A DNA stretch of 64,000 nt from Vitis vinifera (lineage: Eukaryota > Streptophyta > Magnoliopsida > Vitales > Vitaceae). The notes under the pieces were generated by a model that did not search any database, was not told the origin of the DNA, and saw only the letters and a list, made by a program, of their open reading frames with translations. Position 1 is the stretch's first letter. The number at the start of each line of letters is the position of its first letter. Made by a program: the position numbers and the translations under genes. The DNA lies in assembly GCF_030704535.1 (NCBI RefSeq), contig NC_081810.1, forward strand, positions 7,636,501-7,700,500, given 5' to 3'. Below, piece after piece: positions 24,243-47,600 of the stretch.

Positions 24243-25525
24243 CTTCGCTTCACAGAATCTTTTGTTTATGACATGGTAACTCATAATGCCGAGGCCATTT
24301 CAATTTATCTAATTTTCATTCATTTACAAGATGTAACATTATTGGAAATACATCACTGTATTTACAATGATTCATAATTGAATGAGTCAGTTCTTCATCT
24401 GCCCAAGTGGTGACAGCTCTTAAGTAGCCTACTTTTGCAAATGATTAGATTGTTCAAACAGATACCCTCAGTACAGGACCCGGCTTCACTATGGATGTGA
24501 GGTGGATCCTGATCTAATGTTATCCGACTTGGACACATTTCACTAACCCCATTTCAATTATTTGTCTTCTCTGCAATGGATTCTTCTTGATCACCAAGAA
24601 TATTCTTTATTAGCTGTTCTGCAAAGGCCTTTTACCTCTCCAGTCGTTCTTAGATTTTCAGCTATTGATTTGGTATGACATGATGTGGCTTTTTGTGGGT
24701 TTGTTATAACGAGGGTATTGGAATCCAAATCTTTATTCTTTGGTCAAATAGTCCATGACCAATCTAGGAGAAGGAAAGGAAGCTCTCTATGCCTGACCCA
24801 TGTTTGGTACATTACCCCTGAGAAGGGTCAGAGGTCACGTGGGCACCCACACTAAAGATGATGATTTGCATAAAACATGCAGGGAAAAAGGAAGAAGCTA
24901 CCCAAGCAGTGGTAGCAGCGGTAGTACCTTAGGCTTGGACCGGTGGGTGTCTAGTCAAAAAGGCCATCTCTCTGGTTCCATTCACATGGGACCCCGGAAG
25001 AATAAAATGACCTTTGAACCCAAGCGAGGGACCTCCACGACAAGGGTTCCCTTAAGATATGGCTTCAAACACCCTTTTCGGAATTGGGATCCTCCCTTAT
25101 TATTTTTCCTACTAAATAATCTCACATGAATACAATAACCCACCCACCCAACTCCTGCCGTCGCCTTCACGAGTCCTTCGTTAAAGATTCATGAGTCTCA
25201 TTAGCCTCCTTGGATGAAGGGATACTCTTTTTGACTTCACACACTCACACACACGCAATGTGGAAACAAAGCCCACAGCCCCCGTAATTTAATCCGTTAA
25301 CGACGACTTTACTTTCACGTAAACGTTTTCTCCCCATTGCAGGAGATTCCATTTCTGTGCTCTGGATTCTGGGCTTCTGCCCTCCGCCCCATCAATCATC
25401 CTTCTTTTATCCTCCTCTCCCACCCCCACCCCCACCCCCACCTTCTTTGCAAACAAAATCTACCCATCACCTCCCACTTTCTCTCCTCTATCCATTGCTT
25501 TCCGCAATCATCCATCTTCAACAAT
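24243..25525. other. F2KP 3' end and ATL promoter region
   Basis: Presumed F2KP 3' UTR followed by the upstream region of the RING-H2 gene. A G-box core CACGTG lies at 24836-24841, and a C-rich CCCACC run at about 25420-25440 sits in the likely leader. The open frame at 24800-25129 has no family feature and I do not call it a gene. Confidence 0.5.
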
Positions 25526-26329
25526 ATGCTGAGCCCACCTGATGAATCCTCCATCTCCAGCCCATTCACTGATTTCATGAAGAGTGTGTTCTCATACAAT
25601 GGCAATGTGATGCTGGCCGCCATTGTATCTTTGCTTCTTGTAATTCTCTTTGTCTTGGTGCTCCACATCTATGCCAAGTGGTTCTTAGCTCATGCCCGTC
25701 ACAGGAGGAGAAGTTCCGTCTCTGTATCGCATGTTCTTCGTCCTACTCGTTTCCACCATTTCCATACATTCACATTTGAGACCACTCTCTCTGGTTCTCC
25801 AACCAAGGGTCTTGATTCATCAGCCATTTCTTCCATCCCTCTCTTTGTTTACAAAGCTGAGGAGCATAAGCATGGATTGGAATGTGTGATTTGTCTGAGT
25901 GTCTTCGAGGATGATGATGTTGGGAGGAACCTACCAAAATGCGGTCATGCATTTCATGTTCAGTGTATTGATATGTGGCTGCATTCTCACTCCAATTGTC
26001 CTATCTGCCGTGCTCCTGCGGCCTGTGAGAAGAAGGCTGTGAGTCAACCAGACGAGGCCATTTTGCAGGAGGGGAGCATTGAATTATCGGAAGCTTTCAT
26101 CGGTGACTTGGGGTTGATTGATGAGGACTCTCCAATGGAGCTTGTGGTTGAGATTCCTGACTCTGAGAATGGGAATGCGGTTACTGATATTCATGATTCA
26201 TTGTCAGCATCTTCTTCCTTGTCATCTCAGTCATCGTCATTGGGTTCTTCCTTGAAGAGAATGCTGAGCAGAAACAGATCAGAACACAAGGTCCATCCAT
26301 CATCCATTTCCAATGACTCAGAAGCTTGA
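25526..26329 (+). CDS. ATL-type RING-H2 finger E3 ubiquitin ligase
   Basis: Single-exon gene for a 267-residue membrane E3 ligase of the ATL family, which transfers ubiquitin from an E2 to undefined targets. It has one transmembrane helix near residues 27-49 (NVMLAAIVSLLLVILFVLVL), a basic stretch, the ATL hallmark GLD (95-97) and then the RING-H2 domain at 120-162: ECVICLSVFE, the C-x-H-x2-H core KCGHAFHVQC, then WLHSHSNCPICR. The C-terminal tail is acidic and serine-rich. The frame is open upstream to 25337, but that extension is proline- and histidine-rich like a translated leader, and ATL proteins start shortly before the helix, so the ATG at 25526 is preferred. It is convergent with a second ATL gene. 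Confidence 0.92.
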   Translation: MLSPPDESSISSPFTDFMKSVFSYNGNVMLAAIVSLLLVILFVLVLHIYAKWFLAHARHRRRSSVSVSHVLRPTRFHHFHTFTFETTLSGSPTKGLDSSAISSIPLFVYKAEEHKHGLECVICLSVFEDDDVGRNLPKCGHAFHVQCIDMWLHSHSNCPICRAPAACEKKAVSQPDEAILQEGSIELSEAFIGDLGLIDEDSPMELVVEIPDSENGNAVTDIHDSLSASSSLSSQSSSLGSSLKRMLSRNRSEHKVHPSSISNDSEA

Positions 26330-28263
26330 TACAGAGAGTCAGAGAGCTACATCTCCGTCCATTTTCTTGTTCATACTCGGCTAGCTAGCTCTGGTAAACC
26401 AAATTGTATAGATCTTGTTTAAGTTGTAATAGTTTCTCTCTGAATCCCCATTCATCTTAATGCTGCTAGCTGTTTCCTCATTCTTTTTCAGTGGCTCTCA
26501 ACTTCATTGCAAATGGGTTCCTTTTAGTAGATCAAAATTAGCAACTATCAGTCCACTAAGAATCAGATTTTGGTGGTATGCCCACATGTGAAGTGGGTGC
26601 CATTGTTGTATAGAAAAATCCCTGGATTTAGGGAGAGAGCTAACCACAGCAGATACCATAAATTGGTTGTTCTAAATTTGATATTCAGAAAGGGTGGGGC
26701 TCATGCCTGGCGAGAAGGACAAAATTCTTGAACAGCCTTCCTTGTTTCTCTGGTCAATGCTGGAGACTTGCATTAAAAATTTTAAGCAGTTGTAATGGCA
26801 ATGACACTGACTGACAAACAACTCCTGCAATTGTAGATATGCTCTCCACTGAATCGAGCTTCAGCCTTAAATGGGACTTATTTACATTTATATACTGTCC
26901 ACACCATGAACACTTTCTAAGAGGACCACCTCACTACCGGTATAGGGTTCGTTTTGGTCATTGTATCTAGTCTCCGAAGTTCAGTCTAAAGTTTTGGCTC
27001 TACAATTAGAGAAATTTGCAATGGTGGAGGCTGGGAGCCATAAAAATATGATACCTTGGCACTAATTTTTCTTAGGACTAAATAATCTTATTCAATGCCC
27101 CTCATTGATGGGATGAGAGGAATTGGAGAGGACGCAGTAATTACAAGATTCTTGGATCGATCCAAATGGCTTAAGTGCCCCAACAATTCCTCCCCCAACA
27201 GGGGGCTCCCATGGCTTGAACCAATTCTTGGATAGGGTTTTGACCATTTTATCTGAAAATCAATTAGTGTACCGTGAATATAGGCTAAGCCATTTATGGC
27301 ATTTGACCACCATCTTTTGAGTGACCCATCTATCAGGCTTAAAGGCACATTGTTGGACTCCAACAAAGATCAACAAGGAATACGGTAACTAGACGGATTT
27401 TGCCTGTCAAAACATTGATGAAACAGGAGAAATTCTTGGCAGTCAGAGTTCAATTTTCACTATCATTTCAGGATTCCAGTTGTTGAATATTCCAGCAGTT
27501 TGATGATATATATAAACTGAATTAGCATGCTCAAGAGTAGATATGTGGATGTTTGAAGTTCCTGGAATCAATATGCATTCACAAGCTCTCTTCACTGCTG
27601 GCCATGGACCTGAAAAACTAACTGCTGTGAGAGTACCATCTCCCATTTGGGAAATTGAAGGGGTATGGAGGAGTTCAACTCCTTTGAATCTATGAATGAA
27701 ATAAAAGATTCGTCCAAGAGAAATGATGGGGTATATATTAATTGCATGATTTGGAGCATTGGGATTTATCCTAACCAAACCACATGCACGGGAAACAAAT
27801 GAAACAGTAAGCATGTTGACTATTTTGTTTCTGCCAACCTGGCTCTACTATCAAACAAAGTACATTAATAATTTGATAAGTTCAACAAAAAAAAAAAGAA
27901 GAAGAAGAAGGAATAGCTTCATATGTGGAGAAGGCAGTTGTACCAAACAAGACTTTGACATGAACTTGATTATTGAAAATGAGCCATTGACAATTCATAT
28001 ATGTTCTTGAACATCTAAATCAAAATTTCCATATCCACCATTGGCTGAATTCTACAGTGAAAGTCACTGATAGCCAGAATTAAGCATCTTCCACTATCAA
28101 CACTCACAAGTGAGTCATATACAAATACATAAAACTGTTTGTTCTGTGAAAATAAACTACCCATCAACCCCCACAAAAACAGGGTAATATGTAAGTCCCT
28201 AGGTTCTTTAATTTCTTCCTACTCTAGCTCTTCGAGTGGTATTGCACATTGTCATCTGTAAAT
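26330..28263. other. Intergenic region between convergent ATL genes
   Basis: Holds the 3' ends of both RING-H2 genes. There are two modest minus-strand open frames (27088-27366 and 27443-27814) without any motif I recognise. No RNA gene or clear transposon seen. Confidence 0.55.
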
Positions 28264-28770
28264 TCAAGGAATGGCCGATTCATCAAGAGGGTCATTTCGG
28301 AGAGAGGCTCTACAAAGAGGGCAACTAGACTGAGCTCTCAGCCACTTGTCTACACATTCAGCATGATAAGCGTGGTGACATCTAGGCAACATCTTAATTT
28401 TTTCCTTCTTTTGGAATACTCCAAGACAGATAGAGCACTCAGATTCTTTCACAACATGTTTGAATGCATTGGAATCGCCCAATGAACCGTAGAAGAAGAT
28501 CGGGAAGCTGTCTATGATGGCAGCTTCAAGACCATGACAATCAGCAGGCTGCAGTGTTCTTGCTGCATAGGACAGAGATCTGGAGACAAGATCAGAATGG
28601 GCGGCGGAGCGCCGGCGACACAGCCACTGCCCATACAGGAATAAGCAGTTGACGAGGAGGATGAAAATGAAGAAAATGATTGAAAGGAGGAGGACCCGGC
28701 TGTGGAAACGGAAGCCTTTGTGGTCGTCGGTGAAGTACCAGTGAAAGGCTTTGGGGTCTTGGGAGGCCAT
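28264..28770 (-). CDS. Short ATL-type RING-H2 finger protein
   Basis: Intronless gene for a 168-residue ATL-family E3 ubiquitin ligase. A transmembrane helix spans about 26-47 (VLLLSIIFFIFILLVNCLFL), followed by a basic anchor CRRR. The GLD motif appears as GLE (80-82). The RING-H2 spans 112-153: ECSICLGVFQ, RCHHAYHAEC, WLRAQSSCPLCR. The ATG at 28770 (MASQDPKAF) is chosen because the longer open frame, up to 28917, adds a stretch that does not look like an ATL N terminus. It shares fold but little sequence outside the RING with the neighbouring convergent ATL gene, so a recent tandem duplication is not obvious. Confidence 0.9.
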   Translation of the reverse strand: MASQDPKAFHWYFTDDHKGFRFHSRVLLLSIIFFIFILLVNCLFLYGQWLCRRRSAAHSDLVSRSLSYAARTLQPADCHGLEAAIIDSFPIFFYGSLGDSNAFKHVVKESECSICLGVFQKKEKIKMLPRCHHAYHAECVDKWLRAQSSCPLCRASLRNDPLDESAIP

Positions 28771-30097
28771 GAAGATAGCTTTGATGGAAAATTTGTTTGG
28801 ATTAATTGGTGGTAGAGAAGAGAAATAGAGATGATGGGAGAAGAAGCAGCATATATGGGCATCCTGATGCTTGTCACTGCTCCCAAAAGCACTTGTCTTC
28901 AAGATAGGCGGCCGCAACTTTTGCTTGGTACCAGTGTTCCATGACTGGTAGGTGCGTTTCTTATCAAACTGTACACATCACTTCATTGATTTGAGTGTAT
29001 CAAAATCTATCTTTAAATGAAATGATCATGAATCTCAATAATTAAGCTGACCTTAATACATATTTACAAAGTCAATTAAAGCATGGGATTTAGTTACCTT
29101 TAAAAAGTCCTTTCAACTAAAAGGAGTTAGGAAAAAATATTAATGTCTCCAGGTAATTCAAAGAATCATGGATGGTTATTGACTCACTGTTTCCATTGTG
29201 TGACAAATAATATACAAGTTGTACAGGCCTTATTATCACTATTGGCAAGGTTCTCTCACCTCGCCACTCTTTATATGTATATTTGTCTAACCAAAATAAT
29301 ACAAGGCTTATTGGGGATGACTCTGACTATTTCCCATAGGCCGGCTTGATGTAGTTTTGTTTCCTTTCTCTTTTTCCTTTTTCTCTTTTTGCTGTGGTTC
29401 ATGCACATGAAATTTTCTAGTCCTACACCCCTGCTGCTTGTAGAAGGCCATGGATGAGTGGTGTTGTGCGTGTGGTGTTGTCTAACATACTGTGTGGACG
29501 ACAGGGTTGGCCACTACAGCGACAGTTTGGAGTTGTTTGAATCCGAGAAGTTACAAGGGAGATGCACTAGTTCCTTGCATTTGGCGTGGATTTGATAGTG
29601 TGGATGTATGATGTGGTTTTAATGGAAGTATTTTTTAAATGTTTTAAAATAAATAAAATATCTTTTTAGAAAAAAAAAACATTATAAGTGTTTTTTTTAA
29701 CTTTTTAAAAGTGTTTTCTAATTTCTAGCCAACATTCAATTTTTTGTAAAAAAAACTAGTTTTTGATTAGAAGTGTTTTTTAAAAATGTTGTCAATTGCA
29801 TGATTGAGTCTGATTACCTACACTCTTAAAAATCGCTTTTAAAGACACTTTGAATCTAGAATTCTTAATTTAGAAAAAATATATATATGCTTTGATACAT
29901 ATTTAAAAAAAGAAAAATGAGAAACTCGCATTTGTAAAAATCAAAACTTAATATATTTAATAAAAAAATAATTAGAATTTCATGTACTTTTAGGTTAAAA
30001 ATAATATAAAAACACTTTTTAATGATATAAATATTATCTATAATTTAAATAAGTACTAATTTTAATCAAATATACACTAAAATAGTTAATGCTAGAG

Positions 30098-30099
<2 letters not shown>
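28771..30099. other. AT-rich intergenic region
   Basis: Promoter of the minus-strand ATL gene, then increasingly AT-rich DNA with A/T runs from about 29620 on. The repeated AAGTGTTTT-like pieces near 29690-29790 may be remains of a small element. Nothing coding seen. Confidence 0.5.

Positions 30100-30141
<42 letters not shown>
30100..30141. repeat. (TA)n microsatellite
   Basis: About 21 uninterrupted TA units immediately beside the left edge of the LTR-element region. Confidence 0.95.
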
Positions 30142-30145
<4 letters not shown>

Positions 30146-30889
30146 AATTCTACTTATGATATGGAAGAATTTTTTGAGTTATTGGATGTGCAAGATTAGA
30201 TCTTCATAGGTGTGGACCTCGTATTTCTGTTCATATGCTTCCACTCGATGACAAACTCATTTTTTATTAAAAAAAATATATATTTTTTTAGAAAATGACT
30301 TGGAGTCGCCACTTTTTTTTGTTTTATTTTTAAAGAGTAAACAAAATAAGAAAAAAAAAACTCTAAATGTGACTCCTTATTTAAAAAAGATGGTTTACAA
30401 AAAATCGAATCTGGGCTCAGGGATCAGGTTACTTATCGGGAAGGTGCGGTAGAAACCGTAACACCCCTCTAAACCCTTAAAATGAGTCTTTACTAAATAA
30501 AATGAAATACATGTGACAATTGATTAGTAGACCAAGAGATACCAAAATGATATTACACATATGAGAGTCACAACAATACATAGAGAATGGTCAAAGTGAG
30601 AGTATATGTGTACCTTAACAACAAGCACTAATGCACTATCATGGAACAAGGTTAGTTCAAGTATAAAATTATCACATGCATATCGAAGAGTAAGACAAAT
30701 ATCAAATGATATTCATTAAACATAACAGTTGACAATCAGAATGTAGAGCCCCCACCAAAGCCCAATTGATTTTGCATGAAATGATTCCACAAATTCCATT
30801 ATTTTGGAATTATGAAAATTGTCTTCTTGCTTATTTAAAATCAAGAGAAACAAAAAATTATTTGAAAATCGAAGAAAATTTGTGAATTA

Positions 30890-31525
30890 AAAATATTTGA
30901 AAAATGGAGTGGAATTAAAACTATTTGAAAGAAAATTGGAGTTTTGAAAATTAAAATCTTTAAAAATTACATTTAAAAAATGGAATTAAAAAAAATATTT
31001 GAAAATTAGAGTTTGGAAAATTTAATTTGAAAATTGGAACTTTGAAAAATTATTTGAAAATGAGAGTTCTGAAAATTAAATTTGAAGAATTGAAGTTTTG
31101 AAAATTAAATTTAGAAATTGAAGTTTTGAAAATTATTTGAAAATTGAAGTTTTGAAGATTAAATTTGAAAATTAAAGTTTGGAAAATTAAACTTAAAAAT
31201 TAGAGTTTTGAAAATTAAATTGAAAATTGGAGTTTGGAAAATTATTTGAAAATTGGAGTTTTGAAAATTAAATTTAAGAATTTGAGTTTTAGAAATTAAA
31301 TTTGAAAGAAATAGGAGTTTTGGAAATTAATTGAGAATTGGAGTTTTGAAAATTAGTTTTGAAAATTATTTGAGAAATGGAATTTTGAAAATTAAATTTA
31401 AGAATTGAAGTTTTGAAAATTATTTGAAAAAATTTTGGAATTTTGAAAAATTATTTGAGAATTGGGATTTTGGGAAATTAGATTTAAAAACCTAAGTTTT
31501 GAAAATTAATATTTGAAAACGTGAA
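30890..31525. repeat. Degenerate tandem repeat of GAAAATT/GGAGTTTT units
   Basis: Some 30 imperfect repeats of short units such as TTGAAAATTAAATTTG and TTGAAAATTGGAGTTTT, spaced about 20-25 bp, inside the presumed long LTR. Low complexity, not coding. Confidence 0.75.
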
Positions 31526-31661
31526 TTGGGAATTAAGAAAGAGATGAGGGCATTTAAAGAAAAAAATAAAATGAGCCCACCAAATGTTAATGGTGTATGC
31601 AGAGACTTCATATATTTTATAATAGGTTGTGTACAATCAAATTGTACTTTGTTGACTTTTT

Positions 31662-31859
31662 TTTTTCTTTTGCTTCATCTGATCCAACCTTGTCTCTTAT
31701 TATATTACCACGAATTCGTGTAAGCCGAATGATGCACTGGCCCACAATGCTCGTAGCCCCATTTTGCACAATAGCATTACTTGGACTTAGATTGGCAAAG
31801 TCTTCAAGCATTCTTAGTGAAATCAAAGGATTAATAATAACAGTGGTTGCATATTCCAC
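31662..31859 (-). pseudogene. Fragment of mitochondrial enoyl-ACP/CoA reductase (MECR-like)
   Basis: About 66 codons matching the central part of plant mitochondrial trans-2-enoyl reductase, an enzyme of mitochondrial fatty-acid synthesis. Recognisable pieces are EYATTVIINPLISLRMLEDF, the very conserved VQNGATSIVGQC of the NADPH-binding fold, and IIRDKVGSDEAKEK. No start, N-terminal domain or C-terminal domain is present, so it cannot be functional. It joins directly to a PP2A fragment on the same strand. Both lie inside the LTR-element region and run in the element's orientation. The match is from memory of the family; the exact parent gene is unknown. Confidence 0.8.
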
Positions 31860-31973
31860 TCCTCCAAGAGAACTGCTCTCACCTGCTCACAACGTTTTCA
31901 CCTCCGCCTTCGGTAAAGGCTTACAATCCATCAGGTGTTTGATTTGACGGTCCAGATCCGCTTGAGAAGGCAT
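31845..31973 (-). pseudogene. Fragment of PP2A catalytic subunit (N terminus)
   Basis: About 43 codons matching the start of plant protein phosphatase 2A catalytic subunits: [20 protein letters not shown], then the AEVKTL region and, after a small frame disruption, a stretch like VLLEEWNMQP. It stops well before the metal-binding GDIHGQ motif, so there is no catalytic capacity. The piece begins at what looks like the native start codon (31971-31973). The few dozen bases upstream may be PP2A leader. It runs into the enoyl-reductase fragment, and bases 31845-31858 fit both parents. Confidence 0.78.
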
Positions 31974-32448
31974 CGTTTCTGCTACCAATTGGCGATGCAG
32001 ACAAATTCGTCGACGAACAAGGAATCTTGCCAAAAAACAAATCAATTAGATAGAATCGTCATCAATTAGACGTTGACTTTTGCCTTTTTGTAAAACTCAT
32101 AGCCCGCAATCTTACTCCGCCCAACTCACTTTAAACCACTGAACGAATGCCTGTCCTCCATTGAAAGCCAGAAACAGAGGAAAATAAAATGAAGGGAAAA
32201 CAGAGACAAAACGAGAATAAATATAACTAAAAGGAAAAAAAAAAACCATTAGTCAAAGCTTCATCTCATGAGCAATCGGTAAGCTTGAAAATTGAGTGGG
32301 GTGGACAAAAAGGGTTTCAAACATGAACCAAAAACACAACTGAAAATATCTAAAAAAAACACAAAGCCAAAACAACCCCAACAACGCCAAATAAAAGGAA
32401 ATGACCACACTATAGTGCAATCAAATCAACTTAGAGATCATTCGGAAC

Positions 32449-32904
32449 AAACATGTGACTCTCAATGTCCACTCTCAATCAACAGGATAATGTTAAAACA
32501 TCAATAGAGAATGGAGCAAAGTGGTGAAAAGAATGAAAGACAAGAAAATTGCAGTGGCCATACCTGGTATGTTTCCTCTTGAGCACAATGCACCCTGCTT
32601 CCACCTTCCGTCCTCCTCTCCTTCTAGCAATCTTCATTTTCTTTGTAAAACTTACTCCTCAAGCAGCCGATGCTCCTCCAGTAATCAACACCGCCCTCTG
32701 TCTCCAACAATTTGCAGCCTCCCCTAAATCTTCAAAACCGTTTTCAAGAATATTCTCCCCAACATGTGTCATTCTCTCATTCCCCTTTCGACCCACTAAT
32801 GTGATTTCCTAATGACTAATCTAAGAGCAACATGTGGCCATCAAAATCTCAACATGTAGCAAAAATGAATAACTGCAAATATAACCCAAAATTAGGGGTC
32901 TACA
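32449..32904 (-). repeat. Direct repeat, left copy (LTR start segment)
   Basis: Matches 39066-39521 base for base over the whole length with scattered substitutions, mostly C/T and G/A. In element orientation it starts TGTAGACCCCTAATTTTGGG. Short open frames here are by-products of the repeat. Confidence 0.85.
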
Positions 32905-33399
32905 AATATGCCCCTCTTCGGTAGAGCTCATGAGTGCAAGGAATGTGAACACTTAAGTGAAAAGAAAGTGTAAATAGTGAGTGGAATGAAGTGAACTCTA
33001 CCAAAAAACAAAAGAGACTCCCAAAGGGACATTTGTAAAATATCAACTCGCTAAGGCCAATAGATGAACAAAAGGGTTCTAATCCTAAGAGAAAAACATC
33101 TCACAAAGCACCTCTAAAGTTGCACCAAGGACTCAAACTCTCTAAGAATTCTCCAAAAGTGACTTGAAGGTCAATGTCAGACTCTAAAAGTAACAGTTGA
33201 ACCACCCTAGAGTACAGAAAAGAATGCGTCCAAAGGGAACGACTATATGTGTACTACATGAGAACGATAAGCATAGGGCGCCTGACAACATAACCGAAAT
33301 ATGTGCCATGAACTCAAAGGGAGGATAAAGTGGGGCTCAAGGCCGAACATACTTAACTAGGTAGGCGTGGCTCGAAGCCGAACAAAACTCAACTCAATT

Positions 33400-34870
33400 G
33401 ATAAGATAATGATCGATCGATATAGGTGTGGTCCCAACTCGCACTGAACATAAACTAACAAGAAGATGTCCGATCGATATAAGTGCGATCCAAAAAACTC
33501 AAACTTACAAGACGATGACCGATCGATATTGGTGCGATCCCAACTCGAATTGAATACAAACTGATAGGAAGATGATCGATCGACATAGAAGTAGTCCCAA
33601 AAACTCAAACTCAAACTGACAAGACGATGACCGATGAATATAGGAGTGGGTCCCAAAAACTCAAACTGATAGAAAGATGGTCGATCGATATAGGTACGGT
33701 CCCAAGAAAATCAACTGAACTGACAAAAAAATGACCGATCAATATAGGTGTGGTCTCGAAAAACTCAAACTGATAGGAAGATGACTGATCGATATAGGTG
33801 AGGTCCTAAAAACTTAAACTAACACGAAAAATGATCGATCAATATAGGTGTGGTCCCAAAAACTCAAATTGAACTCAAACTGATAGAAAAATGGCCGATC
33901 GATATAGGTGCGACCTAAAAAACGCAAACTCAAGGTAGGCGAGGCTCGAAGCCGAACAATACTCAACTCGACTGACAAAATGAATGACCGATCGATATAG
34001 GTGCGGTCACAACTCAAACTGAACACAAACTGATGGTTGATCGATATAGGTGCGACCCCAAAAACTCAGACTCAAACTAATAAGATAATGATCGATCGAT
34101 ATAGGTGCGGTCCCAACCTAAACTGAACACAAACTGATAGGAAGATGGTCAATTGATATAGGGGCGATCCCGAAAAACTCAACTGAACTAACAAAAAGAT
34201 GACAGATCGATATAGATACAATCCCAACTCGAAAACTCAAACTCAAACTGACTGAAAAAATGACTGATTGATATAGGTGTGGTCCCAAAAAACTCAAATT
34301 AATAGGAAGATGACCGATTGATATATGTGCAATCCTGAAAACTAAAACTAACACGAAAGATGACTGATCGATATAGATGCGGTCCCGAAAACTCAAACTA
34401 AGCTCAAACTAATAGGAAGATGGTTGATCGATATAGGTGCGGTCCTAACTTGAAAACTCAAACTCAAACTGATAGGAAGAATGACCGATATATATAGGTG
34501 CAGTCCTGAAAAACTCAAACTGATAGGAAGATGACCGATCGATATAGGTGTGATCCAAAAAATGCAAACTCAATGTAGGCGCGGCTTAAGAAATGACTGA
34601 TTGATATAAGTCCAGTCCCGAAAACTCAAACTAAATTCGAACTAATAGGAAGATGGTCAATCAATATAGGTGCGACCCCAAAAACTTAGACTCAAACTGA
34701 CAAGACAATGACCGATCAGTATAGGTGCGGTCCTAGAAACTCAAGTTGAATTGACAAGACGGTGATCGGTTGATATAGATGCGGTCTCAACTAAAAAACT
34801 CAAACTCAAACTAACATGACAATGATCGATCGATATAGGTGCGGTCCCAACTCAAACTGAATTGACATGA
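33400..34870. repeat. Minisatellite with GATCGATATAGGTGCGGTCC core
   Basis: More than twenty diverged tandem units of about 55-75 bp. Each carries a core like GATCGATATAGGTGCGGTCC followed by CAAACTCAAACTGA-type spacer and AGGAAGATG. Minus-strand open frames across it (for example 33357-33656) encode repeated DRSS/LYRS peptides and are by-products of the repeat. It lies between the gag piece and the left LTR copy of the retroelement. Confidence 0.9.
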
Positions 34871-34939
34871 CAATGAATGATGATGATCTGATCAAGTGGC
34901 TCAAAGCTAAAAGATAACCAGGATAACGATGCAAGCAAA

Positions 34940-36600
34940 CTCGATAGGAGGTGATATGCCCCAATATGAAACTTATGAAAGATCCAATGATCCCAAGAAA
35001 GGAGGGCATGCCCCAGTATGCAACTCGCAGGAGTCAACAACTAGATCAAAAGGTGAATGAAATTTTGCTGAAAGGTATGGTGCTCTCTCGAATGGGGTAT
35101 GCCCCAGTATGTGACGGTGAACAAACTGAGCTATGAAATGCCACAAAACTACTGTACTTTGAAATATGTTCATCCATCATGTAATGAAAATGTCCTACTT
35201 CGAATAGGTAATGCCAAACAAGACCATGTATCATGATACCATGCTAACAAAACAAAACTAACCGATGGATAAAAACAATGATGACCAATGCTCAAGATGC
35301 AAAGAGCAAGGAAATCAACACTCAACATGTCAATTGTCAAAATGAAAGCATCATCACTAATAAATCAACAATCTATCAGACCTTGCCATCATGGAAGATG
35401 TTAAATCTAAAGTCCAAAAGATGTTGAAAGCACAACCAAAGAAATCGATGACTGATCTACATCTGCTCCTGATCAAGAGAGGGGTGTGAGGTCATGTATT
35501 ATGGTGAGATGTGTGGGATAAAAAGAAAGTAATGATCAAGCTCTGATAATATAGAAAGCATGAAAATATCAAGGGTGAAATGTTTGAGTATAAAATGAAA
35601 GTAGGTAGGTATCCGAGATCATCCAAGTATGCCGAGAAGTCTAAACCCAATGTATCAATAGCTCTATAATCTATCGAAAACAACAATCATAAACAAAAAG
35701 TCAAGTCTCAATGTCAAAATGTCCAACTAGGCGGCTATGCCCTAGTATGCAATGAGGACAACATGAAACAATCCAATGATCTTTATATCACTCGTCAGAT
35801 GCTCCAACGTAAAGAATCAATATGATCTCCCTCCAAAAGATAGATATGCCCTAGTGTAAAGGATCCAATAGGGTGGCTGTGATCCAATGAAAAATACTCT
35901 CCATCCCGGCTATGCCCCAGTATAAATTAGTATATCCGAGTCAACAACTGCTGAGGAGGATCATGCCTAGTGCACATCAACAAATTAATCAATCTTTACT
36001 CCTAGTGCCAAAAATGGAAACATCTCAACATAACCCATATGAATCAGAACCCCCGTGCTATATGAATGTGAATGAAGTGACTATGCCCCAATATAAACCA
36101 TCTACAATGACTATGCTCTAAGATAAATCAAAGTTTGTCGCCAATGAGAGGGCTATGTCTCAATATGTGTTCTCATAACAAGTTCAATCTCATCCATCAA
36201 TGCTGAAAATGAAAATTCCAATATAATCTCAACAAACCTTAATCAGTTTATGCTCCACAAGAAATGATAGAGTGGCTATGTCTACCATGCACAATCTTTG
36301 AAGCAACCGTGTCTCAAAACAAACCATCATCTCAAAAATCAACCATTAATGAGTGAAGTGTGTCTCAATGTAGAATATCGAGTAGAATGACTGTATCTCC
36401 AATAAAAGTGCTCTCTGAAATGACTATACCCCAGTGTAGAGGATCCAATAGGGTGGCTATGCCCCAATGAAAGGTATCATCCTGAAAGAAACTGTCATCA
36501 ATGAGTGGGGTATGCCCCAGTGTAGATCACATCACCTCCGAAAATCCATCACTGATAAGAGGGGTATGCCCTAGTGTAAGTCATATCATAGTTCCTCATC
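34940..36600. repeat. Dispersed TATGCCCCAGTATG motif cluster
   Basis: A short motif, GGCTATGCCCCAGTATG and variants, recurs at about fifteen irregularly spaced places, for example near 34956, 35005, 35096, 35732, 35845, 35904, 36080, 36425, 36458, 36506 and 36563. It is often followed by AAGGATCCAATAGGGTGG-like sequence. Non-coding, internal to the retroelement region. Confidence 0.8.
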
Positions 36601-38204
36601 CATCATGCTCCAAGAAATAATCTCCAGCCAATCTCAAGTATTGTCCATGTGTGAGCCGTTAAGCACAATATGTGAAGTCATGGCCTTAGGATGGTCTTAA
36701 GACTCAGGACATAACGTAAACTAGGGTAATAAGGTGAAGAAATGAATGGAAACTAGGCTCAATAATTCTAATGATATAATCCTCATACCCCTCATGCATG
36801 AGATGCAATGTCTAGAAAACATCATGATTCATGGACCGAAGGATTCTCTCACAAAAAGTGATGATAAAGGAATGAACATATCGAATAAGTAAGAATAAAG
36901 TGTGGATGCTGAACCCAAGTCAAATATCAAGTAGGATGAGAAAAGAAAGAAATCAGATGAAGTGGAGTAAAATGGAATAATAAAATAAAAATAAAAGAAA
37001 GCAAAGAGATAGAAAAGTGAGTGATAGTCAACCTACATCAAAGCATGGAGATAAGTCACATAAAAATGGATATAATGACGAATAGGGAAATGATCTAGAA
37101 ATCCTAAAGAAAGATCACTCGCAGCTCTCACAAAAATTGAATCGGCGACTCATACTCTCACCCAAAATATATACCAAGATAGAATCTAAAAAAAAAAGCT
37201 CTCATACGAACTCTCTCTAACACATAGACTCAATGAAGCAAATTGGTGTGTCCATACATATGTCCAATGGAGAATGATACAATGAAGAATGCGCAATCGT
37301 ATTTTTTTTTTTTTTTTGTGCATACTCTAATCAATAATGAATGACCTCAAATGAAAATACATACCCAAATGATCAAACCCTCTCCACATATGAAGAACGA
37401 ATCCTCACTAATAAGACAACCTCTCAAACTAAGATCTCTGAACCATTGCCCATGGGGTGAACGGGGGGAAAAATGTGACAATCCCCCATGTAGTAACGTG
37501 TGAAAAACCACCACTCAAGGTGAAACAAGGATAATGTCGAGTAAGTAGTGATGAGAGAAAAGACGAAAAACGAATATCACAAGTGGTGATATGTGATGCC
37601 GGAAAAAAAAGTGATGAGATAATGTCAAATTGGAAAATATCACAATGAAAAGTGAGAGATGATGTCTGAATATGTATGTCAAGTCTATAACTCATGACGT
37701 ATCTAATCAAAGCATGTAAATACTATAGGGTCCCCAACCCGGTGTAATAGGTAAATGAGGTGATGAAAGAAAAGGCTATGGTGCTCATGTGAATATCAAA
37801 GGGCTAGCAACGAGTAACTCTATATGCGAGGGTGATATAGTAAATGGGCTCATGAAATGATGGCCAATCATCCTTTGACCACAACCTCAAACATCGTGCT
37901 TTTAAGATCTCACATGGTCAATACTAAAGACTGACATCCATCCAACATAGTCATATCAACCTCTTTGAAATCATGTGAAAGCTTTCACTGATGCTCTGTG
38001 ATAATCATCAATGTCCTTTGACAATCACCCCACTCTATCATTACATGCCACTCACCATCGTCTCATAAAATTAGTCTCTCTGATCATACCAAAAGTCATG
38101 TGCAATGACTCAAATCTGGATGCTCCATGACGATCCATCTGCCTCAACAACATCATCAAGCAATCAAACCACTCTCTCATTGTGATCCATCTATCATACT
38201 GATA
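36600..38204. other. Non-coding internal part of the retroelement region
   Basis: No pol-type motif on either strand. AT-moderate sequence with a T-run near 37300. Taken as degenerate retroelement interior because it lies between the motif cluster and gag. Confidence 0.5.
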
Positions 38205-39060
38205 CTATGGATGAGATAAATGAGCTCTAACTATAGGAGGCCTGTAAGGTGAATAATGTGCGGGCCTCTGATGCTGATAGCTAATAGTGCCAACCTCTCC
38301 AAATCTACTAGATGATCCAATCGGCTTCTTCCCCTTACTGTTAAGGGAATGAGCAGTATATGTCCATAATCCTTGAGCAATGACCTCCTCAACACTGAAA
38401 ACTGCATGAACTAGACTCTTAAGATCTTGAAATGGAATGCCCACGAGGCACTTAGCAAACCTCGCCTGTAGGTTTCGAAGAACTGTATCAATCTGATCTT
38501 GCTCCTTAGGCTGATCTATCATACCAGCCACTTTTGCCCTTCAACAACTAACAAATGAAAAAATAGACTCATCTGGCCTCTGTCCGATGGCCTCCAATTC
38601 TCGCCTAGATACATCAATGTCAGCGCTAAAAGTGAACTGGGTCAAGAACTCGTGAGCTACATCATCCCATGTACGGAATCTCAAAATCTCGAAGGCTCAA
38701 CTGAAGCAAACCATCTTTGAGCTACCCCACTAAGTGACATGGGGAAAAGGGCCACCAATTGTGTATCATCTATCCCGTGTGCTCTAATGACTATGCTGTA
38801 TAGTCTGAAGTGGATCTTGGGACAACCAATCTCACTATAATGCTCAATGTTTGGCATGCGAAACTTGGCGGGCAAGCTAGCCGCTGATATGTCATTCCAA
38901 TCATCTTAAGTCAAACCTTCGTCCTGCAATCTGATCTATCTCATCATGGACTCAAGCCTATCAACTTTGGCCTCCTGATCGGCCAATCTAGTATCATCAA
39001 TAGTAGTGACAATGGGAGGTGGCATTGTGACAATAGGTGGTGGAATGACCTCATAATGAT
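38205..39060 (-). pseudogene. gag-like remnant of a Ty3/gypsy element
   Basis: Minus-strand reading shows hallmarks of the plant retrotransposon gag family: FRMPNIEHY, LVALFPMSLSGVAQRWF and, further on, DTVLRNLQARFAKCLVGIPF. It is broken. No protease or zinc-knuckle segment is recognisable after it. Its upstream side nearly abuts the right repeat copy. Confidence 0.82.
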
Positions 39061-39065
39061 ATGCT

Positions 39066-39521
39066 AAACATGTGATTCTCAATGCCCACTCCCAATCAAT
39101 AAGATAATGCTAAAAAATCAACAGAGAATGGAGCAAAGTGGTGAAAGAATGAAAGACAAGAAAATCGCAGTGGTCATACCTGGTATGTTTTCTCTCGAGC
39201 GCAATGCACCCTGTTTCCACCTTCCGTCCTCCTCTCCTTCCAACAATCTTCCTTTTCTTTGTAAAACTTGCCCCTCAAGCGACCGATGCTCCTCCAGCAA
39301 CCAACACCGCCCTCTGTCTCCAACAACTTGCAGACTTCCCCAAATCTTCAAAACCGTTTTCAAGAATATTCTCCCCTACACATGTCATTCTCTCATTCCC
39401 CCTTTAGCCTACTAATGTGACTTCCTAGTGACTAATCTAGGGGCAACACGTGGCCATTCAAAATCTCAACATGTGGCAAAAATGAATAGCTGCAAATATA
39501 ACCCAAAATTGGGGGTCTACA
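39066..39521 (-). repeat. Direct repeat, right copy (LTR start segment)
   Basis: Partner of 32449-32904. The outer edge at 39521 ends GGGGGTCTACA on the plus strand (TGTAGACCCC in element orientation), and ordinary AT-rich flank begins immediately after it. Confidence 0.85.
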
Positions 39522-41355
39522 ATAGGTTATTTTAAGTTTGAAAAAAAAAATTAAGGTACCCAATTAAGAGAGTAACGGTTATTGTTGCTTTTCATCATCT
39601 CTCTTCTTCTTTTGCCTCTTCTTCCTCCATTTTTTTTCTTCCTTAATAATTTTGGGTTTATATGAAATAAATTAGACATAAATATTGAGATAAAAAAAAT
39701 GGAATTGGATAAAAATAGAAACGAAAATGATATAAAACATATTTATTTATAAAAATAAAATTTTCATCAAATACCTTAGCCACATTGTTTTATTTTTAAC
39801 AAATTATTAAACATTTAAATTCGACATAAAAATGAATATGGTAATGTTTTAATATGGAATGAGTATTTGTATTGATATTCAACATTTTGATCATAGGTTA
39901 AGCAAAGATATCAAGTAGTTGGACCATGATCATTTTAAAAAATTAAGCTAATTATATGAAATTAAAATTACACCATAGTTAAATTCCACCATATTTTATA
40001 TAACATTAACTATAATATATTTGAATATAATTATAAAAACTATATAAACTTAATTTAGTTGTTTTTAGCATGACTTATTGAACAATACTATTGCTCTTAT
40101 CTCGCGTGTATAAGATTAAATCATAAAAGGACAATATCACCGATATGGTTGTAAAGGTATGTTTGGTCATGTTTTGTGATGTTTGTTTTTAAAAATTGTT
40201 TTCAAGTTAGGATGTGTTTGGTACGTGGGAAAAAGAAATGAGAATAAATATTTTGTTTTCATTCTTATTCTCTCTTGAATATGAATGAATTTGACCGTTT
40301 TGATTATTCTGTTTGGATGCATATATGAATATAAAGTTGGAATGATAATTTGTTTCCATTTTAATATTTAGTAAAGATAAGAATGAAAAAAAAAAATCAT
40401 AATATCTATACATATGGTTTAAAATATATATATTTTTTCTTTTTATTTAAAAAATTCTCACATTGTGCATAGTTTGAAATAAAATTTATTTTTATTTTTA
40501 AAAAAAATTTAAGAGTTTTTTTCGCTAAATAATAATAATTTAAAAACAAATTTGTTTTTAAAAAATTTATACCATTATTCAATTGTTGTTCTTTAGAAAC
40601 AACTTTAGAAAACAAAATAAAATAGAAAATTATTCTTTTTCACACTGTGCTCACATTTTTCGTTCCTAAAATATTTACTTTCTTTTTAAATTTTAAGATT
40701 AATTTTTTTTAACAATAAAATAGTTGAATAATAATATTTTGAGATACATTATAGACGTTTTGAAGATAAGTTTTAAAATTTAAAAAACTTAAAAATTAAA
40801 TTAGACTACAAAAATGTGAAGAAGGTACCCACAATTTTCGTACATTATTTCAAATTTTTATTTTTAAATTATAATTTATTTTTCAAAAATTTCAAAATAG
40901 AATTTATAAAACTATTTCAATGTCATATCAAGTGAAAATAATGCATTCCCTAATTTCATCATTATTTTTATTTTATTAAAATAATTTAAAGAAATATAAT
41001 CAAAATTTTTAGTTTTTCATCCATTTAATGAAAAATTAGTTTTTATAAAATATGATTTATTTTGAATTCTAATTTTATTTTATTAAATAATTAAAATTAA
41101 AGAAATTTATTCTCAAAGAAATTCAATCTCAACATAAATAAAATAAAAATAGGTTTGTTATTTTTATTTAAATGAAAACAAATTTTATCATAAAATTATT
41201 TAATAATAAAAATTATAATTTTATAAAAAGTAATTATGAAATTAAAAAGATTTTTTTTAAAGAGAGATTCATGTTTTAATTTGAAAGAAGTTGAACTAAA
41301 TGAAATATGAAGAAAATGAAAGGCGGAAGGAAATAAAATAATGTTAAATCTTATT
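39522..41355. other. AT-rich intergenic region
   Basis: Very AT-rich flank of the retroelement. The stretches GTATGTTTGGTCATG near 40156 and GTGTTTGGTACGTGG near 40212 resemble ends of small DNA transposons, but I could not find matching opposite ends. No gene seen. Confidence 0.5.
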
Positions 41356-41429
41356 TGGTCCCGGCGGGGCTCGAACCCGCGACCTTCGGCTCATAAGACC
41401 AACGCTCTAACCAACTGAGCTACGGGACC
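41356..41429 (-). tRNA. tRNA, probably Ile (anticodon UAU)
   Basis: 74 nt cloverleaf on the minus strand. The acceptor arm GGTCCCG pairs with CGGGACC; the D arm is GCTCAGTTGGTTAGAGC; the T arm is GCGGGTTCGAGCCCCGC. A-box TAGCTCAGTTGG and B-box GGTTCGAGCCC are both good. The anticodon arm TTGGT-CTTATGA-GCCGA has two G-U pairs and places UAU at 34-36, with G rather than A at 37, which is unusual for an ANN-codon reader. No intron. Confidence 0.8.
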
Positions 41430-43117
41430 TTGCTGCTTCAAACTACTAATGTTAGTATAAATTCCAAATAATTGTAGATTTAAACCTTAAAAAATCTAAT
41501 CTTAGTCTACCCATGTCTTCCACTATTGCAATCCCTATTGGTGCCACTACAACATGATATGGGCAGTTCTGACTTCCACAACAGTAAGTTCCCTCCTAAG
41601 CTAACAACACCCAGGAAAAATGAAAAAGTCCCTTTCATTGAGCTCTTGATTATCATTTAAGCCACTCCTAGGGGATGTATGATCCTAAAGATGACACGAA
41701 GTTAATTTCTTGACGCTAGAATTTGCTCTTAATTAAATTAACAAATCAAAATTGTACATTTATTAAAAAACCAATTTTGCTGTAGTGAGTGTATAGTGGG
41801 CTGTGTTACACATCCACTTCAACAAAGTTCAAGCGCACAATACCCAGTAAAGACGAAACAAAAGGTTGAAGAAAGCTAAAATATTAGCAAGCAGTAACAC
41901 AAGACAGCCTTTCCACGGCATTCTCCACTAAGCCTTCAAACACAATGAGGACATATCTACCTACCCTACCCTCTTTGCATGGCACATAAGAAAGAAGAAA
42001 CTATTTGGGAGTTTCTTTTCCTATCGAGTCCAAATACATAGGAGACACATTCATTTCACTTGTGAATCCATCAAGTTTCACCAACATTGTTTTAGAAAAA
42101 ATCTATACAATCCATTTAACATATTATATCAAAATTTTAATTTGGACAGTTCAAATGTATGATGAAATATGAATATTTTAACAAAGATACAAACATATAA
42201 AACTAAATAGAATTACAACTTGAATGAATTGGATAGGTTAACCTATGATACATCCACTATCGATATATGGACAAGTTCCCATGAATTATTATAAGTTCTT
42301 ATAAGTAACTAAAAAAAATAAGTATTTCAAATTTGTCATATAAATCATATTAAAATCAAAATATTTCAAAGCCCTAAAATGTGATGGATGGTAATTGATT
42401 TAGACATAAAAGACAATCCTAAAACTCAAATTTCAATATTCTAAAATGCTTTAATAATTAAATAAAAAAGATATTTAAATAAAATACTAGATAACATAAT
42501 TTAAAAGTTAATGAATAATTATTAATATGTATGTTTGAATGTCAATGGGTCACTCAAATCTTCAATTTTAATATCTTTAAATTGATATTTTTCTAGTTCA
42601 AACCTAACCTCAACCTCATGAGATTAGGCAATGGAAGGTTTGGATCCGCCTAAGTTGCAGCCCCAGAATCCGGATCAAGAAAACAAAATGAAAAACATGG
42701 TAAAAAACAGTAAAACTGAGATAACAAGAAGACCAAACATGGGACAACCCCAATTAATGATGTTCATGTGGTACCAAAATCGTACCATTTGTACCCTACT
42801 TTAAAACCTCTCTACCTAATTCTACGGCTTTTAATGAATTAGTTAGAAATTTATGAATATGTTTAATGAAATGCATGAAGTGGGTAATCAAGCCACGGAC
42901 TCGGGTTTCTTCCATGAAGTTCATTAATATGCCACAGAAGTATTTGGATTCAAAGGGCAGTTTTTGAACAGAAAATTAGGAAGACTATTGGGATTCATGA
43001 ACGTGATGTTATATACAAATGAACCTAAAACTCTTTATAGAGTTATACGCCATACAATCTCACATGGACTCGTCATCATGGGCATTGGTCTCAACTCTCA
43101 ACAAGCAAAACTAAAAT
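41430..43117. other. Intergenic region
   Basis: Between the tRNA and the 3' end of the ZIP6-like gene. AT-rich, with no recognisable gene; a few short frames only. The last ~100 bases are probably ZIP6-like 3' UTR. Confidence 0.5.
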
Positions 43118-44361
43118 TCAGGCCCAAAGGGCCAGAACAGACATGGAGACGGAGCCAAGGGTCAAGGCAATGAAAGAAGCCTTCTTCAACAATGGAGCTG
43201 AAGCCATCATCTTGTTGTGGAAGAAATCTACTGCAATGAGATCAACAAGGGCCATGTATATGAGTATACCCGATGATAAGGACCCCAGCAGCCCCTCCAT
43301 GATCAAAGCATTCGCACTACTGTCATCGTAACCTGTCGCAGAAAATATGATCATTCCCAGTACAATTCCCATTGGAGTCGTCACTGCAAACATAAAGCAC
43401 ATATACGCTGTTGTTCCAAAGTTGAAACCCGCCTGCAAATCATGTCAACAAAATTTTATTATCATTGATTTTCTGTAACCTGTTGAAATCTGAGTTCATC
43501 TTATTCTCTGTCCATATCAATTGATAAAATCTATGCCCACTCCATCCTCAGTCTATAGAAAATGTCGGGTCAAACAAGTAACTAATGGTCTCCACAAAAA
43601 ACTGCGAAGTCGTCTCAGTGACAGTGACTTTGAATTTTCTTCTCAAGATCTAAAGATGAGGGTTTTACCTGAGCAATGCAGCCTCCGAGGCCCAAACCCT
43701 CAAAAATCTGGTGGAAGGCGAGGGCAGCGACGAGAGGTCTGATGGTGCATTGATTTTGAGACATACCCATGGTAACGCCTATGATGACCGAGTGGAATAT
43801 GATTCCAATCTCCAATACTTGAGACACCAGTCTCTGCTTCAGCTTCACCAGCTCTTCACCTTGTTTGTCAGGGCAACTCACCGACAGTACCGCCGTTTCA
43901 ACCCGGAACTCGGTCAATTTCTTGGCGTGAGTGGGCAATTCTTCTTGGGTCCCAATTGGGGTGTAGTGACTGGGCTTGTGGCTGTCGACATGGGCGGAGG
44001 CGGTGAGGTCGACGAGGAGGGCGAGGATGGCGCCGATCATGGTGACGAGGCCGGAGAAAGGGAAGTCCTTCCAGGGGTGGTGGGAGGCGACGTGGCAGTC
44101 GGAGAGGGCGGCGAAGGCGTCAGGGAGGACGTGGACGAGGGAGGTGGAGAGAATCACGCCGGCGGCGAAGCACTTGATGATGAGAATCGCCTTGTCGTAC
44201 ATGGGTTTGCCTTGGAAAACCCGGGCAAGCATCACCGGGGAGGAGATGCCCACCACACTGGTGATGAAGATTACGAAGATTGATACCAGCTTCAGGTGCG
44301 CCGCTGCTCTTCCGTCCCGGCAGGCCAGTGCCCGAGCCGTATCGCCTACGCACGAGGCCAT
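43118..44361 (-). CDS. ZIP6: ZIP-family metal transporter (ZIP6-like)
   Basis: Eight-helix ZIP transporter importing Zn2+/Fe2+-type divalent metals across a membrane. Two exons: 43669-44361 and 43118-43432 (minus), 335 residues, close to the ~340 of Arabidopsis ZIP6. It starts MASCVGDT, as ZIP6 does; an ATG 9 bp upstream (44370) is possible but less likely. The metal-path signature is in helix 4, [18 protein letters not shown] (His ~190), and helix 5, [12 protein letters not shown] (~216-227). TM3 and its edge include [19 protein letters not shown]. The cytoplasmic loop between TM3 and TM4 (~122-180) has few histidines, also like ZIP6. It ends SMSVLALWA. The leader has a GA microsatellite. 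From memory, KUP1 and ZIP6 adjoin in Arabidopsis; here about 40 kb separates them. Confidence 0.94.
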
Positions 44362-44383
44362 TGGCTCCAAAAATTCAATACTC

Positions 44384-44429
44384 TGAGAGAGACAGAGAGA
44401 GAAAGAGAGAGGGCCAGAGAGAGAAGAAA
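44384..44429. repeat. GA-rich microsatellite in ZIP6-like leader
   Basis: Interrupted GAGAGA tract just upstream of the ZIP6-like start codon, probably transcribed as 5' UTR (CT-rich on the coding strand). Confidence 0.8.
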
Positions 44430-44639
44430 GCGTTGGCGATTGTGGACTTGGTGGCGAGCTGTGGGTGTCTGTATGTGTAACCTCTTGGGTGTAGGGTGGG
44501 GGAGTGACGAGGGAGGTGCGTGGATGTATGGTGTGGAGTCCACTATGCTGATGATGGATGGGGTTTTCAACACGGTGGCCCCTTCTCCGTCCCTTCAGTC
44601 TTGTGTGTTGTGTGAGGTGTGATGTGAGTGAATTCCACC

Positions 44640-47600
44640 ATTATTTTTTGAGGAATTATAGCAGGTCTTTTTGAAATGGTCTTTGAGCATTTAATCACCT
44701 AAAAAAAAAAATTCAACTTCATTTGCTAACTAATTCAACAAGTGTCACTATAGAAAAAGTGGAGATTTATTTTGTACACGTAAGATTTTATTCTTAGATA
44801 AAAAGTTTTCGTATGCACGCGAATCAGGCTTTTTAATTAGACATTCGTAATTCATATCAATTATTTGTTGATGCAATAATTTAAAAAAAATAAAATAAAA
44901 TAAAATCTTGCAATTTCATAACAGTTCATGTGGGACAATATTGTTAATTAGATAGGGACCCATAACCCATGAAGCCGATAATGACCAGAACCCACCATCA
45001 ATGATAAGAAAGTTCTCAAATTTTCCTGCAAACTCCGAAGAAATTTTACCATTTGGTCCATGGATTTTGTAACATCATGTCTCTGAAAAGGCCTGTAAAT
45101 TCAGTGGTCTAAATTGCTTAAAAATAGAATGGTTCAAATAAGGACAACAATACACACTGAAATGGCCCAAAAATCTTACAGTCTTGCTGACATAGTCTGA
45201 TTTCATCCCTGGATTACCAAGAAAAGAAAAAAGAAAAAATGAAGTGGGGTTTTGGTTTGATTTAATTTTTACCCAAATTTAAAATGATTTAGAGAATAAA
45301 TAAAAAAATCTAAAATAAGATTGAGTTAAAAGTTGGGAGATAGTGGTGGGAATGAAATTAATAGAGTAAATAGATAAATTATAGAAAAAAAATTGAAAGA
45401 AAGAAGTTGGCACTTGGGATAGATTGTGATTTGAATCTAACTTTTTGTGGAAGGTGGGTTTGAGTGCAGGAAACTCTCGCGTTTGTGCAATTTTTTTGAC
45501 GTTTCTCACACGTATTTGTTTGAGTAAAGCTTTAAAATTGGTCATTAATTGTTGTTGTTGATAAGTATGAATTTTGTGCTATGAGCGTTTGAAAGGAGGC
45601 TATTAATATGAAATAGTTATGTTGGATTTGTGACTCCTTAATTGTTACATTGAATTTTTATCTTTTTATTTGAAAATTAATTAATATTAAATGAGAATAA
45701 ATCAAAATTTTAATTTAAGAGTCCTTATTTGAGTGACTAGACTAAAAGTAATATAAGTGTATCTCAAGATAATTGTTAGCTAATGATTACGATAAGAACA
45801 GGAAAAATTCAAAGGTGGTATTTGTTTTTTGACTTTTTCTATTTAATTAGAAGTATATTAATTAAATTAAATTAAATTTATTGAATATGATATTTTTATT
45901 TGAATAAAAAAATTAAATATTTTGACTTTTTCTATTTACTTAAAAAATAAACACGATTTAAAAATATTTATCCAAATATGATTAATATGTATGCAGTATA
46001 CTTTCTTTAATTTGATTTAAATGTCATTTGAGAATATTTTATATCATATCTCATGTTTTGAAGTTTTGTGTCTCTATATAAAATATTCTTATAACTAACC
46101 AAATGAAATAAATAAATAAAAAAGCTTATTAAATTGTTCTAATATTTTTAGAATCATTTGTGATTATTTGAATGTATTTTTGTTGGAAAACTTATATGTC
46201 AAGGGTAATAATGAAAATATCAATAATTATGGGTATATCGATCATTGGATTTTATGGATATTCGACGTCTGTAAAAATAATATGGATTTTGTAAGTATAT
46301 ATTCATTAATAAGTTCTATTAAATATTAATATTATAACATTTAATAATAATAATATGTCCAATTTGACTATCTATTAATATTAAAATTATGATGTAAATA
46401 TAAAATAAAATGATGATATATGGATGTGTTTTTTATATTTATATTTTTCATATTTAATAATCATATAAATGATATAAAAAAAATTGTCATTAATTTTTAT
46501 ATTTTTGATAATCAATAAAATAAAATAATTAGATTTAATTAATTTATTAAAATATTCTTTGGATATTTTGTTATTATAATGGAATTAAATATATACATTT
46601 GTGGCTTTTTATTATTGAGTGTGAATTGGCCCTATTGGTTGCTAACATCTTCCCCGATATTAAGGGTTTGCCCAGCAAGAGGAGTAGGTGGATAAGGGCT
46701 AGGAGAACGAGAGGGAGCAGGGAGTGGCCGTTTGACCAACGGAAAAAATGGGGAAATTTTTTACGAATTTTTGACATAGCACCGATTCCTACGACTACAT
46801 CACGCGATTCAATTTTTGCCAAAATTTCCCTCGAAAATTCAATTTTTCCTTTGAAAATTTAATTTTTTTTTTTACATTTCAAACCTTGGTTAAAAAGGTA
46901 ATTTTATTTGAGAAAAAGCATGTTTCTACTATTTCTCATAGGTGATGTGCGGAAGCCTAATTTTATTCAATTAAAAATTTTAACTATGTCGAAATTATCT
47001 TTATTTTTAATAAAAATATATTTTAAAATATAAAGAATCAATAAAAACAATAAAAATACTAACTCGTGCTTCCACATTAGGCTGGCCCAGTAGCCTTGGT
47101 CAGATCAATGAAAGGCCCAGATCTGCAACATCATCGGGTCTTAACATAGGCCAAGTTCAGCTGCACGGCCCACACATCACCCCGAGTGGGACGTAATATA
47201 GGCCGTTATCAGTTAAAAGTCTAAGCAGCTCAGTCCTCGGGCCACATTGGACTGTCTGAAATAGAGGGAACCCAGACCGAGCCCGGTCCATGGGAGATCA
47301 AACTCACAGGCTATGCCATAGTAACTTAGTAAGTTGCGAAAGGTCCATAGAACGGCCAACTAAATCCGTGGGCCACAAATCTTTTATTCATCTATTTATA
47401 ATACAGTGTAGATACCATGTAATTTTTATAAAATAAAGGGGGCTAAAAAGGAAAAAAACACCCAGACATAAAAGCAGGAGTTCTCTTTCAGTTTCCTCTA
47501 AGAATCCAATGAGAGGGTCAAAATGCAGTAGCTGGTCAAGAGCATTGTAAAATGTGTGAAGGGGAGGGGGGTGGTGAAAAGCAGCGAGTAGAGGAAGGGT

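Follow-up and report, generated by a model that had tools for sequence, protein, structure and literature searches.

The window analysed here, a 64-kb stretch of Vitis vinifera DNA, carries on its minus strand a 411-bp insert (31661-32071) in which pieces of two unrelated housekeeping genes of the host are joined. In the sense direction the insert consists of a 98-nt leader, the start of a PP2A catalytic subunit and an internal fragment of the mitochondrial 2-enoyl thioester reductase MECR, and a repeat search found a perfect direct repeat of 10 nt, AAAAGTCAAC, on its two sides. The 5' copy of this putative target-site duplication lies at 32072-32081 and the 3' copy at 31651-31660, where it continues the A-run at the end of the MECR piece. 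The two gene pieces are directly joined, with no intergenic sequence between them, and both are sense on the minus strand, as the sequence-only reading had proposed. From its position, the stretch of 98 nt ahead of the PP2A ATG (31974-32071, minus strand) is probably the PP2A 5' UTR. This putative leader contains a 10-nt direct repeat of its own, TCTAATTGAT, at 32070-32061 and 32050-32041 (minus strand), with starts 20 nt apart.

The PP2A piece covers approximately 44 codons of the N terminus (31844-31973, minus strand). From an ATG at 31973 the catalytic subunit start can be read for 28 codons, after which an in-frame TGA appears because of a 2-nt deletion near 31890; beyond the deletion the PP2A reading resumes in the next frame for 16 residues, to 31844. 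Among solved structures the 28-residue part alone found no match, and the 44-residue two-frame query found 16 sequences at E up to 10. Its best alignment spans 38 residues at E 5.4e-05, a value that is somewhat flattering since the query was assembled after the frame change had been noticed. Thirteen of the 16 sequences are named as PP2A catalytic or C subunits, and a further one, 8uwb_C, aligns likewise but carries the label of the 65 kDa A subunit; E-values for the 14 PP2A-type matches range from 5.4e-05 to 1.5e-04, and the remaining two are unrelated (E 0.45 and 0.9). The piece resembles the plant form of the protein, which begins MPS..DLDRQI. These matches bear out the earlier proposal of a PP2A catalytic subunit start on the minus strand. 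The same reading had the PP2A sequence end at CKPL and run straight into LRMLEDF, and here it needs correction: PP2A reads on in another frame to 31844.

The MECR piece is an open stretch of 66 codons (31662-31859, minus strand) that stops mid-gene on its 3' side. When the open frame at 31886-31617 (minus strand) was compared with solved structures, the best match (E 2.7e-07) aligned query residues 11-78 with chain residues 130-201, and against the solved MECR chains the fragment has a gap of 4 residues. A total of 17 sequences matched at E up to 1. The top four are mitochondrial enoyl reductases (E 2.7e-07 to 3.9e-07), the next seven are enoyl or dienoyl reductases (E between 0.00047 and 0.0018), and six more distant or unrelated sequences close the list (E 0.029 to 0.99). 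We take the best-matching chains to be human MECR. A Pfam search of the same frame at E up to 1 returned no family. The suggested enoyl reductase piece is thus confirmed by the structure matches, and the match begins at VEYATT (31859), well ahead of LRMLEDF.

The two readings meet in a short stretch at 31844-31859 (minus strand) that is read by both pieces in different frames and is probably a microhomology. In the printed alignments, MECR (from the E at 31856) and PP2A (to the Q at 31847) overlap by 10 nt (31856-31847). The codon sets of the presumed plant PP2A and MECR sequences agree along 17 nt apart from a single mismatch, a degree of agreement found for 0.57% of 45,990 position pairs and on 13 of 428 diagonals, with 26 nt as the longest anywhere. 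If strict compatibility is required and PP2A is given its usual valine, the overlap shrinks to 8 nt, a length attained by 4.1% of the position pairs. A microhomology join of PP2A and MECR is likely on this evidence, part of which comes from the presumed plant protein sequences.

The insert lies within an LTR element, as had been noticed from the sequence, and the LTR pair and a flanking heptamer both support this placement while narrowing it to the probable 3' LTR. The 5' LTR (39066-39521, minus strand) is 90.4% identical to 32905-32449 over 459 columns. The probable 3' LTR, interrupted by the insert, is placed at 31629-32904 (minus strand), with its start at TGTAGACCCC and its end at about TTGTACAC or TTGTACACA; the portion of it that is matched by the other LTR is 32904-32449 only, and its end was set from the AACCTAT repeat. 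One copy of AACCTAT stands directly before the 5' LTR (39522-39528, minus strand) and the other, located by motif search, at 31622-31628 (minus strand), as a putative target-site duplication of the host element (5-7 bp). These are the only two occurrences on the minus strand between 39540 and 31580, out of seven on that strand in the whole window, and the chance of meeting this 7-mer within the 869 nt from 32448 to 31580 is 0.027. The copy at 31628-31622 puts the end of the element at approximately 31629, and therefore the chimera inside the 3' LTR, approximately 30 nt from its end. The insert falls between the two AACCTAT copies of the element, 39528-39522 and 31628-31622.

The host appears to be an old, degenerate LTR element spanning about 39521-31629, with LTRs that are about 90% identical. 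The divergence between the LTRs amounts to a K2P distance of 0.104; the 455 columns compared contain 39 transitions but 4 transversions, a bias such as would be expected of methylated, silenced plant retroelements. When the tail of the 3' LTR (32448-32072) was compared with 39700-37000, only weak matches were found (best E 0.096), and the tail is single copy in the window at up to 3 mismatches. The corresponding portion of the 5' LTR seems to have been deleted; the 5' LTR was probably cut short by a deletion that also took the primer-binding region. Since the 5' LTR has no part matching the tail, the insert may once have been present in one LTR or in both. Eight frames of the element interior matched no Pfam family at E up to 10; by resemblance, the element is presumably gag-bearing. 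Within it, at 33359-34884, lies an array of diverged units of about 50-60 bp around GATGACCGATCGATATAGGTGCGGTCCC, with 19 copies in one family.

Several other features were recorded in the window. Just past the end of the host element, at 30872-31514, is an AT-rich minisatellite whose units measure about 28 bp (TTTGAAAATTGGAGTTTTGAAAATTAAA), for which one Tandem Repeats Finder row gives 15.4 copies at 30943-31367; it may belong to an older, separate LTR remnant. Two open frames encoding RING-H2 fingers lie on opposite strands, at 28264-28977 (minus; zf-RING_2, E 8.1e-14) and 25301-26329 (plus; E 2.7e-13). A tRNA-Ile gene with a TAT anticodon is present at 41356-41429 (minus) and a tRNA-Glu gene (CTC) at 61344-61416 (plus).

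The 10-nt repeat around the insert was assessed by several measures. The upstream stretch of 207 nt was resampled 20,000 times under a Markov model; a match as long and anchored at the end of the A-run arose in 1.1% of these resamplings, and with an upstream stretch of 357 nt in 0.6%. Leaving aside its A's, the repeat is a 6-nt match, a length reached in 4.0% of the resamplings. When the minus strand of the window was divided into 309 blocks of 207 nt, 7 held a match of at least 10 nt to the same anchor: two are the repeat copies themselves, four consist mostly of A's (1-2 nt beyond the A-run) and one has five A's plus 5 nt. Both AAAAGTCAAC and its last 8 nt occur at the two flanking sites on the minus strand, with no third copy on either strand of the 64 kb, and AAGTCAAC and longer forms are likewise confined to these two sites when both strands are searched. 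The shorter GTCAAC is more frequent, with 6 copies on the minus strand and 15 on the plus strand. The evidence that the repeat is a target-site duplication is decent but not overwhelming, and the 411 bp look like one insertion with a target-site duplication of its own. Because the insert carries this putative duplication within the 3' LTR, the surrounding element was probably its landing site rather than its captor.

The 3' edge of the insert is A-rich, with a run of ten A's that is nearly all accounted for by MECR codons plus the repeat, so that no independent 3' poly(A) tail is present at the edge. Priming at a TTTT/ nick would be expected to give an A-rich 3' edge and a repeat that begins AAAA; the repeat does start with AAAA, but the bases before it are GC, versus the TT of TT/AAAA. 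By inspection alone, no LINE sequence was recognised within the 411 bp.

Both gene pieces, the repeat that flanks them, the overlap where they join and the A-run are observed; an mRNA origin of the pieces, a LINE as the source of the enzyme, the direction and order of copying, and the LTR as the target are inferred. On balance we favour, with modest confidence, a chimeric retropseudogene that arose in a single LINE-type insertion event, in which the MECR message was primed internally and the enzyme then jumped to the PP2A mRNA. Such an event would have begun with a nick in the 3' LTR that left a T-rich 3' end (the complement of AAAAGTCAAC), and this end would have primed at an internal A-run of the MECR mRNA (GCAAAAGAAAAA). 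Tailless retrocopies can be internally primed. Reverse transcriptase would next have copied approximately 198 nt of MECR in the upstream direction, and would then have jumped to the PP2A catalytic subunit mRNA at some 10-16 nt common to both messages, exactly or nearly. Approximately 230 nt would have been copied towards the PP2A 5' end and into the leader, and the product would have been integrated with a 10-bp target-site duplication.

The sequence-only reading had left the choice between transduplication and retroposition. Our analyses favour retroposition, in view of the direct repeat, the A-rich edge, the contiguous coding sequence and the probable microhomology join, and make capture by the LTR element less likely, in view of the putative target-site duplication that belongs to the insert itself. 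Under such a capture, much as for Bs1, the enzyme of the LTR element would have strayed, while reverse transcribing the element inside the particle, onto MECR and PP2A mRNAs packaged with it and then returned, so that the chimera came to be part of the LTR. The position of the chimera within the probable boundaries of the element, and in the same orientation, fits this account, and plant LTR elements are described in the available part of PMC13317346 as taking up several genes and as gaining foreign LTR sequence by template switching. Nevertheless, the account requires switches both out and back and predicts no target-site duplication, yet a 10-nt repeat brackets the insert. We therefore consider capture by the LTR element unlikely.

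Joining could also have taken place before reverse transcription, in a fusion RNA (a trans-spliced, ligated or readthrough PP2A-MECR transcript) that was then retroposed whole, with no jump by the enzyme. In recent human mRNA/LINE-1 chimeras the junction often falls at a splice site, which the portion of PMC13174262 available to us attributes to cis- or trans-splicing. The overlap at the PP2A-MECR join fits a homology-guided jump better than it fits a splice junction, and a prior fusion RNA seems quite improbable here.

An origin without any RNA step was considered as well, in which the two gene pieces would have been brought together as DNA by a Helitron, a Pack-type DNA transposon or a repair-linked insertion. 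DNA transposons that capture gene fragments are well known in plants, and the two pieces may not have lost any introns. The available text of PMC8525387 gives multiple exons and introns for rice PP2A genes, and that of PMC12124296 gives exon counts for the A and B subunits of tea PP2A; the PP2A piece may lie within a single exon. A patchwork of DNA pieces sits poorly with two pieces that are both sense, coding and contiguous, with no intergenic sequence at the join, and with a flanking repeat that adjoins the A-run; in addition, no inverted repeats were reported in 26000-46000 at a minimum length of 40. We regard this origin as very doubtful. It is hardly credible that the protein matches, or the repeat around the insert, are due to chance, given that adjacent stretches of one strand match two named proteins at E 2.7e-07 and 5.4e-05, even if the 28-residue PP2A piece alone has no match, the 44-residue query was built after the frame change had been seen and resampling gave the repeat only moderately low odds.

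A functional PP2A-MECR fusion gene was also considered and was rejected, since the frame has a stop and the two frames would have disagreed before the 2-nt deletion. In its present form the insert would never have encoded a fusion protein. It is non-coding and now inert, and a function is unlikely; if the promoter of the 3' LTR works, sense RNA from the insert might be made.

Chimeras of two mRNAs that contain no LINE sequence exist in human, and the single jump favoured here can be set beside other known systems. The available portion of PMC2104539 describes LINE template-switch chimeras (mammalian U6/LINE-1, Magnaporthe WEIRD-MGL and WEIRD-MgSINE) that have 10-20 bp repeats. As far as that portion goes, the grape insert resembles them in that two cellular RNAs (on the RNA origin favoured here) are fused directly in one orientation, the 3' partner is truncated at its 5' side and short direct repeats, 10 nt in our case, flank the whole. 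It differs from the chimeras described there in that both partners are protein-coding host mRNAs, neither a LINE nor a SINE, the 3' end of the 3' partner is missing as well, the join apparently uses shared sequence and the host is a plant. A LINE or SINE as 3' partner, which is usual though not universal in template-switch chimeras, is absent, and the 3' partner is MECR.

LINE-like retrocopies with target-site duplications occur in dicots (PMC4838847), and the insert shares with them the duplication, the A-rich 3' edge and the AAAA that opens the duplicated site; the retrocopies described in the results of that study each have a single parent, whereas the insert has two and has no real poly(A) tail. 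Tailless retrocopies with a target-site duplication have been found in therian genomes (PMC4838847) and are similar in these two respects, but in the grape insert a second RNA would have been copied after the first. Gene-capturing LTR elements provide a third comparison. The available part of PMC13317346 describes multi-gene capture by maize Bs1 and foreign sequence in an LTR (BARE-2). Like Bs1 and the other gene-capturing elements covered there, the grape element contains fragments of more than one host gene; unlike in those elements, as far as that part describes them, the fragments lie in the probable 3' LTR with a flanking repeat of their own, which suggests a later nested insertion.

Searches for relatives and precedents were made in several collections. 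In viral contigs, a collection that is not of plants and is silent on plant copies, the MECR frame gave 44 pattern matches, of which 0 were confirmed, and the LTR start pattern and a degenerate MECR pattern gave 0 each. A degenerate plant PP2A pattern gave 0 in bacterial and archaeal genome contigs and 0 in viral contigs, which are equally silent on plant copies. In the open-access literature, searched by titles and abstract openings, no PP2A-MECR chimera and no plant mRNA-mRNA template-jump chimera was found.

The kind of event is already known, and the insert is a neat example of it. We put forward more tentatively, at somewhat short of even confidence, the broader proposal that LINE machinery in a plant primed internally on one housekeeping message, made a homology-guided jump to another and so produced a pure mRNA-mRNA chimera in which no transposon is a partner. 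A chimera of two messages that combines a LINE-style footprint with a join at shared sequence would offer a small amount of evidence, open to checking, that the plant LINE machinery jumps between templates. Since the copy is dead and short, its value lies in marking a mechanism rather than in being a gene. Plant retrogenes have mostly been credited to LTR elements (PMC4838847), and chimeric retrocopies are one route to new genes. If the broader proposal is true, exons could be joined in plants by LINEs, without splicing and without LTR elements. According to the available text of PMC7935947, Vitis vinifera has the lowest ratio of non-processed to processed pseudogenes among five plants, about 2, and a 3' poly(A) failed to discriminate retroposed copies in the species studied there. 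In Vitis, with its relatively large share of processed pseudogenes, such events may then be countable.
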